Source of the DNA: Nitrosomonas sp. Nm33
GTDB taxonomy: Bacteria; Pseudomonadota; Gammaproteobacteria; Burkholderiales; Nitrosomonadaceae
Length of the DNA stretch: 64,000 nt
Assembly: GCF_900107265.1 (NCBI RefSeq)
Contig: NZ_FNPJ01000003.1
Location: 1 to 64,000, forward strand
Direction of reading: 5' to 3'
Part shown: one piece after another, positions 21,311-28,191 of the stretch
Numbering within the stretch: the first letter of the stretch is position 1
Layout of the letters: each line of letters opens with the position of its first letter
The notes under the pieces: model-generated
Seen by the model: the letters and a program-made list of their open reading frames with translations, nothing else
Databases searched by the model: none
Told to the model about the DNA's origin: nothing
Made by a program: the position numbers and the translations under genes

Positions 21311-21333
21311 AGTTAAATTCTCCTAAAATGAAC

Positions 21334-21405
21334 GAGCGCCGTTTTTTCGCTATCCTTATAAACTGAGCCTGACGGATTGATAGCCGTTGCAGCGCTCCTC
21401 AGTTT
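21334..21405 (-). promoter_or_regulatory. S-adenosylhomocysteine (SAH) riboswitch upstream of ahcY
   Basis: Read on the minus strand, the element shows the conserved core GAGGAGCGCTGC-AACGG (21401-21385). A short hairpin ACGG/CCGT follows, then AGGCTC (21370-21365). Stem P1 is AAACTGAG (21405-21398) with CTCAGTTT (21367-21360). GAGCGC in the core can form the 3' pseudoknot with GCGCTC at 21339-21334. Element, order and pseudoknot match the SAH riboswitch class known from proteobacterial ahcY leaders, where SAH switches expression on. It ends about 10 bases before the ahcY ribosome site (21317-21324). Confidence 0.93.
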
Positions 21406-21483
21406 ATGGGAACAATCCAAGCTTACACTTAAATAGGGAATAGTAATCTCAGTAAGTAGATTTTATTCTTGAAATTGAATCAA

Positions 21484-24256: not shown

Positions 24257-24285
24257 TTTACAATAATCAAGTGTACCAGTATAAT
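24257..24285 (+). promoter_or_regulatory. Sigma-70 promoter of the tRNA-Ala/tRNA-Glu unit
   Basis: TTTACA (24257-24262), a 17-base spacer and TATAAT (24280-24285) give a near-consensus promoter. The expected start at about 24292 is 10 bases before tRNA-Ala. It explains strong tRNA expression independent of gltX. Confidence 0.75.
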
Positions 24286-24301
24286 CCTTTCTCCTTCAGT
24301 C

Positions 24302-24377
<76 letters not shown>

Positions 24378-24410
24378 GTATCTCTCGATAGTCATTGTTA
24401 AGATATTCTG

Positions 24411-24486
24411 GTCCCCATCGTCTAGAGGCCTAGGACATCACCCTTTCACGGTGAGTACAGGGGTTCGAATCCCCTTGGGGACGCCA
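24411..24486 (+). tRNA. tRNA-Glu (anticodon TTC)
   Basis: 76-base cloverleaf. Acceptor GTCCCCA pairs with TGGGGAC, discriminator G, encoded CCA. The anticodon stem TCACC/GGTGA holds the loop CTTTCAC with TTC. The T-arm GGGG-TTCGAAT-CCCC is standard. It lies 33 bases after tRNA-Ala and is probably cotranscribed with it. Confidence 0.97.
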
Positions 24487-24587
24487 CTATATGAAGGTAT
24501 TCGTGGTAAGATTAACCATTAGCATGAATACTCAATCAGAAATTACTCCGCTTTCCATTTCACCTGGATAAAAGCATTTTTTCTGGG

Positions 24588-26378: not shown

Positions 26379-27101
26379 ATGTCGTTATTTCAGAATATCA
26401 GTTTTTATACTACCGTCAATCAGCTGAGGGATTTACCTCGGGCATCCGGTGTGGAAGTTGCTTTTGCTGGGCGTTCTAACGCGGGTAAATCCAGTGCAAT
26501 CAATACTCTTGCCAAACGTGGTCGTCTTGCTTATGTGAGTAAAACACCTGGGCGGACCCAGCATATTAATTTTTTCCGGCTTGAGGATAGTAACTTCCTG
26601 GTTGATCTTCCTGGTTATGGTTATGCCAAAGTGCCTTTAGCAATTCGTCAGCATTGGGAACATTTACTCAGCACTTATTTGCAGACTCGTGATGTGCTGT
26701 ACGGTATGGTACTCATTATGGATATCCGCCATCCTTTGACCAGGCTTGATCTACAGATGCTAGAATGGTTTTCGCTCACAAAAAAACCAGTGCATGTTCT
26801 GTTAACTAAATCAGATAAACTGAGTCGCAGTCAAGCTGCTTATGCGTTGAAAGAAGTAAAGTATTTCTTAACAGACCGATATCCACACTGTACAGTGCAA
26901 CTTTTTTCTAGCATGGTGGGATATGGTATTGAAGAAGCTACCGCCATTTTAACTGATTGGTTCGGGTCAGCCGGAGCAAAGATTCATCAGCATACTATCG
27001 AACTAGAGACAAAAAAAAACCCGGTTAAAGGGGAAAAAACCGGGGGGAATCGCCTTATATCAAAGGCCTCGCCTCAGGGAGGGAAGGCGAGAGACGATTA
27101 A
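26379..27101 (+). CDS. engB: Ribosome biogenesis GTPase EngB (YsxC/YihA) with an unusual C-terminal tail
   Basis: 240 aa GTPase needed for 50S assembly. G1 is [10 protein letters not shown]3 is [12 protein letters not shown]4 is LLTKSDKL, and the switch region has [11 protein letters not shown]. The conserved domain ends near residue 205. The last 30 or so residues are very polar (K, G, N, rich) and are encoded by DNA made of consecutive hairpins ending at a minus-strand terminator. The tail is therefore probably a by-product of an overlapping RNA locus and not a conserved domain. The family is usually near 200-215 aa. hemB follows after 82 bases. Confidence 0.93.
27011..27044 (-). terminator. 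Minus-strand intrinsic terminator within engB
   Basis: Read on the minus strand: CCCGGTT (27044-27038), an 11-base loop, AACCGGG (27026-27020), then nine consecutive Ts (27019-27011). The stem is perfect. It points against the coding strand, so it cannot serve engB or hemB. Confidence 0.8.
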
Positions 27102-27118
27102 AAATATCGTCTATCTAT
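27011..27118 (-). ncRNA. Candidate small RNA antisense to the engB 3' end
   Basis: On the minus strand four hairpins lie almost without spacers. H1 pairs AGACGAT/ATCGTCT (27112-27092). H2 pairs CTCGCCT/AGGCGAG (27091-27068) and has a C-rich loop TCCCTCCCTG. H3 pairs GCCTT/AAGGC (27067-27052). H4 pairs CCCGGTT/AACCGGG (27044-27020) and is followed by nine Ts, a textbook intrinsic terminator. No minus-strand protein gene ends here. A possible promoter starts the RNA at about 27118. The size of about 108 bases and the exposed anti-Shine-Dalgarno-like loop fit a trans-acting sRNA. It does not match a family I can name. Confidence 0.55.
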
Positions 27119-27124
27119 ATAGAG

Positions 27125-27153
27125 ATAAAATTTCTTAGTAAGTTCCCTCCCAA
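27125..27153 (-). promoter_or_regulatory. Possible promoter for the candidate small RNA
   Basis: On the minus strand TTGGGA (27153-27148), a 17-base spacer, and TTTTAT (27130-27125) match the sigma-70 boxes at 4 of 6 positions each. Spacing is ideal and the predicted start falls just before hairpin H1. The spacer also carries GGGAGGGAA, complementary to the H2 loop. Confidence 0.35.
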
Positions 27154-27177
27154 TTAATATTTTTATTTTTTAGATGA

Positions 27178-28191
<1,014 letters not shown>

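Follow-up and report, generated by a model that had tools for sequence, protein, structure and literature searches.

A minus-strand RNA between engB and hemB in Nitrosomonas sp. Nm33 is a member of the anti-hemB family and is built and placed like ErsA

The subject of this analysis is a small RNA gene at 27112-27011 on the minus strand of the window, a stretch of 64,000 nucleotides from Nitrosomonas sp. Nm33 (contig NZ_FNPJ01000003.1, positions 1 to 64,000). Judged by its match to the Rfam model, the RNA is an individual member of an already catalogued family, RF02837 (anti-hemB). We think it likely, with a fair margin for doubt, that it is the local anti-hemB RNA acting as a sigma-E-driven, Hfq-bound, trans-acting small RNA (sRNA) directed against Shine-Dalgarno (SD) sequences, and that it is the counterpart of ErsA of Pseudomonas. 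The features of the region are as follows.

27011 to 27112, minus strand: sRNA gene, about 102 nt predicted, with its start set from the promoter and the 105-nt length of the RNA ncS04 and its end from the T tail
27092 to 27112, minus strand: hairpin 1, at the 5' end, of which only the last bases fall within the Rfam match
27068 to 27091, minus strand: hairpin 2, with the C-rich loop CCCUCCCU at 27083-27076 as candidate anti-SD seed
27052 to 27067, minus strand: hairpin 3, from the fold and covariation
27011 to 27044, minus strand: intrinsic terminator, with its stem at 27044-27020 and nine Ts at 27019-27011
27140 to 27146, minus strand: -35-type box GGAACTT, of sigma-E/ECF type, placed at a constant distance upstream of the RNA in 50 of 55 loci
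27118 to 27123, minus strand: -10-type box TCTATA, after a 16-nt spacer, degenerate by comparison with the TCTNA of many relatives
26379 to 27101, plus strand: engB (yihA), complementary to the sRNA in its final codons
27184 to 28191, plus strand: hemB, with 72 nt between its start and the predicted start of the sRNA, and no overlap

Read 5' to 3', 27112-27011 of the minus strand folds into four hairpins followed by nine Ts, and the preliminary description of these elements was accurate in kind and in coordinates. The minimum free energy of 27005-27120 was -39.1 kcal/mol as against a mean of -22.8 (standard deviation 3.1) for shuffled sequences (z-score, -5.3), a fold far beyond chance that none of 200 shuffles equaled in stability. 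It had also been said that there is no protein gene on this strand to terminate; indeed, no minus-strand open reading frame (ORF) of at least 60 aa ends within 27000-27200. The terminator holds a second C-rich loop, UUUUCCCCUUU, at 27037-27027 of the same strand. The RNA was found in a single copy in its own genome by nucleotide search. It lies between engB and hemB, antisense to both, and the engB frame spans most of its complement. The earlier claim that the RNA overlaps and extends this frame is correct for the window, where the frame runs to 27101, and does not hold as a constant feature, the C terminus of EngB being variable: among 49 loci with a convergent engB, the frame enters the complement of the sRNA in 33 and stops before it in 16. 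Elsewhere in the window we noted an SAH riboswitch at 21327-21406 on the minus strand (60.8 bits, with a cut-off of 37) and two Rfam-assigned tRNA genes on the plus strand (24302-24374 and 24411-24483); an 83-aa ORF at the tRNA genes (24271-24522) is very likely spurious.

The candidate had been presented as unassigned, and in this it was mistaken. RF02837, also called Burkholderia RNA 7, matched 27094-27011 at 57.2 bits (cut-off, 49.5) over the whole of the model (positions 1-81 of 81), the match beginning near the end of hairpin 1. Sequence, a three-hairpin core and a U tail are common to the family and the window RNA, and the antisense position between engB and hemB is the one that goes with RF02837. 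Moreover, the namesake of the family, ncS04, had already been mapped. According to the available part of PMC5688073, ncS04 of Burkholderia cenocepacia J2315 is 105 nt long and bears the alias anti-hemB (Table 1); its transcript was mapped by RNA-seq, its 3' end was determined by RACE, it was detected by Northern blot, and Hfq binding is cited for it. The corresponding part of PMC4603805 places ncS04 on the plus strand, flanked by two genes on the opposite strand, and reports that it co-purified with Hfq. Its gene orientation and length are those of the window RNA, a tie that is made by name and orientation. An 82-nt Anti-hemB RNA appears in a B. pseudomallei study (PMC3521395, the part available). 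Homology to RybB is reported for an RNA called Bc7 in the accessible portion of a review (PMC6321483); Bc7 is probably the same RNA as ncS04/anti-hemB. A second catalogued family, RF02278, the double-hairpin "toxic" sRNAs (ncS27 and others), was tried and rejected: it scored 19.6 bits in the window against a cut-off of 50, its likeness to the window RNA consisting in CU-rich unpaired stretches and a terminator. Of 61 genomes (the window's own and its relatives), 53 had an RF02837 match at E ≤ 0.001 and 45 had one over the cut-off; six weak hits outside the family (L056-L061) were excluded from all family counts.

The preliminary description had made compensatory change in the stems its test, and such changes are plentiful. 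In 46 of the 55 loci from the same order (44 of them distinct; the nine that served for model building were excluded), 20 of the 22 stem pairs showed two-sided changes and 96.8% of cells paired. Shuffled controls averaged 11.1 such pairs and none of 500 reached 20, and slid controls gave five to 10 pairs. A structure-guided alignment leans toward its own structure, but these controls fell far below the observed value. We used such an alignment because hairpin 2 varies in length, which is also why RNAalifold, applied to a plain MAFFT alignment, recovered the terminator alone; an analysis of the best stem per sequence, being paired by construction, was used for the loops only. The set from outside the order behaved similarly, with two-sided changes in 19 of 22 pairs. 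As for hairpin 1, in 24 of 52 distinct loci its stem surpassed mononucleotide shuffles (p < 0.05 for each locus); the combined p across the 52, uncorrected for relatedness, was 1.4e-22.

The loops scarcely vary. The sequence CTCCCT was present in the hairpin-2 loop in 53 of the 55 loci, and CCTCCCT in 49, and CCCCTTT, corresponding to the terminator loop, occurred within the last 40 nt in 46. In hairpin 2, then, the stem covaries and carries an unpaired C-rich loop that hardly changes, as is expected of an anti-SD sRNA. Stems that vary with compensation and loops that stay fixed are the signature of loops that pair elsewhere, and a purine-rich SD region would be the obvious partner. The earlier reading of a minus-strand sRNA thus stands: the RNA bears an anti-SD-like, C-rich loop and most likely acts in trans, and its predicted length is about 102 nt in place of about 108. 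Its promoter type, its family and a second conserved loop rich in C, that of the terminator, had gone unnoticed.

The neighborhood of the gene is well conserved within the order, Burkholderiales. Counting neighbors in flanks of up to 1.5 kb, we found hemB on the 5' side in 48 of the 55 loci and a convergent engB on the 3' side in 49, both on the strand opposite the RNA; in three loci engB lay 5' on the same strand as the RNA. At the level of the class, Gammaproteobacteria as GTDB defines it, RF02837 was matched at E ≤ 0.001 in 124 of 274 genomes, exceeding the cut-off in 14, of which 12 are outside the order. Among the best-scoring 28 loci outside the order, drawn from 122 matching genomes of the class, polA was the 5' neighbor in 15 and a convergent engB the 3' neighbor in 16, with both present in nine, and either engB or a cytochrome c4 gene lay 3' in 20. 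CTCCCT was present in 28 of the 29 best-scoring loci when L218, which belongs to the same order as the window, is counted in; L218, where no neighbor was matched, was excluded from the outside-order promoter count, in which a strict form of the promoter box described below was found in 18 of the 28 loci and a loose form in 21 (absent from 10 and seven, respectively).

Additional copies were encountered in several genomes. L046 (G019:C159), from the same genus, is a second copy of the RNA that has its own GGAACTT box and flanks lacking engB and hemB; its neighbors, identified by eye, are universal stress protein-like and cation ATPase-like ORFs. L049 (G059:C16) is likewise a second, non-syntenic copy; it has no sigma-E box and is preceded by a sigma-70-like TTGACA-N17-TATTCT, possibly a promoter switch in a paralogue. 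RF02837-like RNAs occur in tandem at L222, L226 and L236, as two copies about 200 nt apart, and four consecutive RF02837-like hits were seen in each of G231:C33 and G323:C3.

A generic scan found no sigma-70 site at the window RNA, and the promoter emerged from the alignment alone. Upstream sequences contained the block GGGAACTT followed, after 16-17 nt, by TC(T/A), and this pattern, GGAACTT-N16/17-TC, agrees with the sigma-E/AlgU consensus. The motif [GT]GAAC[TC]-N-TC[TA] was found 42-56 nt before the model start in 50 of the 55 loci, where 0.03 would be expected from its rate elsewhere in the same loci; in five loci the box was absent at this distance, and none of the six weak non-family hits had it. 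In the window, GGAACTT at 27146-27140 and TCTATA at 27123-27118 together place the start of transcription near 27112 and hence predict an RNA of about 102 nt. The perfect 9-base complement GGGAGGGAA, assigned earlier to the presumed promoter spacer, does lie upstream of the RNA, at 27151-27143; it is unique to the window among the 55 loci and overlaps the conserved -35 box.

The sigma factor that such a promoter would call for is encoded in the same genome, where RpoE (TIGR02939) was identified above the cut-off at G000:C101. A like box was found in the 260 nt upstream of rpoE in 16 of 24 loci (24 of the 30 fetched), with 0.4 expected, as would be anticipated for an autoregulated stress sigma factor; it was present in 13 of 15 loci within the window's genus and three of nine others, and eight of the 24 lacked it. 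RpoE was found at E ≤ 1e-40 in 59 of the 61 genomes. Both genomes that lacked it (G045 and G054) are among the eight in which the RNA was not matched, a co-absence with a Fisher p of 0.015, or 0.020 if G039, which has non-family hits only, is counted as lacking the RNA, in either case uncorrected for kinship; the other six genomes with no RNA match do have RpoE. Altogether, the motif and its distribution suggest that anti-hemB is under the control of sigma-E. A strict sigma-E consensus was not enriched in the window's genome (three hits, compared with eight in the backward control), and two of the three hits did not precede an evident gene start; this consensus also misses the window's own site, in which the -10 box is degenerate. 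Separately, we observed GGAACTT-N-TCTTA in the window's genome upstream of a gene judged by eye to be cold-shock-protein-like (L108, G000:C131). Published qPCR, in the part of the record available, stands against induction by sigma-E: none of the seven conditions tabulated for B. cenocepacia changed ncS04, and stresses of 20 min, SDS among them, "largely" induced no sRNA, the values for SDS lying outside the tabulated data.

Promoter and location both recall ErsA. The available literature places ErsA of P. aeruginosa between polA and engB. It is described as controlled by AlgU, dependent on Hfq, and a repressor of algC and oprD (PMC8395346 and PMC7264166, the parts available). In P. aeruginosa PA7 (L248), Rfam placed RF01719 (Pseudomon-1/ErsA) at 2147-2262 of the locus; TGAACTT...TCA lies at 2090, the 5' side has a frame that by eye is PolA-like, and engB is convergent on the 3' side. 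When 80 Pseudomonas loci were scanned with loose patterns, a terminator of ErsA type whose loop is C-rich was present in 77, of which 76 also had an upstream sigma-type box. The two RNAs are thus alike in being convergent with engB and in having a sigma-E-type box (TGAACTT in ErsA), a hairpin with a C-rich loop and a terminator with another. They differ in their 5' neighbor, which is polA for ErsA and hemB for the window RNA, in a U-rich single-stranded domain that is described for ErsA, and in the Rfam models, which have two hairpins for ErsA and three for RF02837; the two RNAs do not align significantly. RF01719 was not listed for 26900-27300 of the window up to an E of 1. Conversely, our anti-hemB model R1, run on 20 of the 80 Pseudomonas loci, reached at best 17.6 bits, and in the six loci in which Rfam was also run it scored 12.5-15.4 bits against ErsA, once below another hit. 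Clan membership is shown for neither family. The window RNA, then, is built and placed like ErsA and is outside RF01719, and it is from position, promoter and plan, not from sequence, that we guess at common descent.

An alternative is that the locus is the same but the gene is not: anti-hemB and ErsA would have arisen, or been replaced, independently at an engB-linked slot and would have converged on a sigma-E promoter and C-rich loops. The want of a significant sequence match between RF02837 and RF01719, the unequal numbers of hairpins, and the fact that in E. coli the slot is filled by yet another RNA, Spot 42, all speak for it. Against this, position, orientation, type of promoter and the succession of a C-rich hairpin and a C-rich-looped terminator all agree, and genomes outside the order have RF02837-like RNAs in the interval from polA to engB, as would be expected of intermediates. 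We consider independent origin unlikely, while granting it the greatest weight among the alternatives.

The family name invites a different reading, in which the RNA pairs in cis with a read-through transcript of engB and hemB and tunes the expression of one or the other. The prevalence of both genes on the opposite strand throughout the order is in keeping with this, as is the listing of hemB as a predicted target of Bc7 in the available portion of the review cited above (PMC6321483). But the predicted transcript begins 72 nt away from the start of hemB and does not extend into the gene. Fold and loop are also kept at loci that have no hemB in the 1.5-kb flank: L005, L035 and L043, where engB is on the opposite strand, and L027, L046 and L049, where engB is missing too. 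The box is absent from two of these, L043 and L049. Fold and loop are kept as well in the 28 loci outside the order, none of which had a hemB match in its flanks. Because the RNA persists in several lineages with no flanking hemB and misses hemB here, cis control of hemB is improbable; compensated stems and fixed loops fit pairing in trans by way of the loops. Most likely, anti-hemB is a counterpart of ErsA rather than a cis-regulator of hemB. Finally, that the region is a terminator with chance hairpins and no regulatory RNA, as the lack of an ORF leading into it on the minus strand and of a sigma-70 site in the generic scan might suggest, is scarcely credible in view of the Rfam match, the covariation, the conserved promoter box and the mapping of the namesake transcript in another species.

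How would a trans-acting anti-hemB RNA work? In the mechanism that we favor, envelope stress would free RpoE (AlgU-like), which would transcribe the sRNA from the GGAACTT and TCTATA boxes; the RNA would end at its own terminator and be bound by Hfq by way of its U tail. The CCUCCCU loop of hairpin 2 would then cover the purine-rich SD regions of a set of mRNAs, probably with the help of the CCCCUUU loop of the terminator, and so block their translation. We searched for targets of these loops. AGGGAGG-N-ATG had 45 matches in the window's genome, compared with 20 in the backward control, and 11 of the 45 start an ORF of at least 70 aa, among them genes that by eye are hfq-, ftsA- and nuoI-like. 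The pattern for the terminator loop gave 19 matches, compared with 14 backward. At hfq (30 loci, L158-L187, of 60 matching genomes; the choice of start failed in L165, L169, L170, L175 and L177), AGGGAG(G) before the start recurred in the window's genus and was rare in other families; in the genus it could pair with the C-rich loop. When 30 porin starts (of 58 matching genomes) were compared with 99 ORF controls, p was 0.17 for the hairpin-2 loop and 0.011 for the terminator loop, a result that we do not count as evidence because the controls include spurious ORFs and the starts were chosen heuristically. Across hfq, the porins and the whole-genome SD matches, we detected no target signal that was both conserved and controlled.

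In the available parts of the open-licence literature searched, anti-hemB has a name taken from its neighbor, a mapped transcript and no reported or tested function, and we found there no mention of a sigma-E promoter or of a link to ErsA; relative to that literature, three things are new: a promoter of sigma-E type, a family of this breadth and a connection to the ErsA locus. If the proposal is right, promoter and locus together would indicate what anti-hemB responds to (envelope stress) and to what class its action belongs, would offer ErsA of Pseudomonas as a worked model, and would make the RNA a candidate for the sRNA branch of the envelope-stress response in these bacteria. An ancient sRNA locus would also become open to testing in two large groups of bacteria.

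The comparison can be extended to E. coli, which has no RF02837 match over the cut-off. There, the spf gene for Spot 42, an RNA under the control of CRP, has polA on one side and yihA (engB) on the other and is convergent with yihA, and the slot can thus hold another RNA. A broader conjecture, to which we give an even chance, is that one ancient, vertically inherited envelope-stress locus of the beta- and gammaproteobacteria is represented by anti-hemB, by ErsA and by the RNAs found between polA and engB in many further gammaproteobacteria. It would be a sigma-E-driven locus for an anti-SD RNA with two C-rich loops, older than the split between Burkholderiales and Pseudomonas, with Spot 42 as a re-wired occupant. 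Enterobacteria have the sigma-E sRNAs RybB and MicA. If our proposal holds, anti-hemB would follow the same logic, in which a stress sigma factor drives the synthesis of an RNA that lowers envelope mRNAs.
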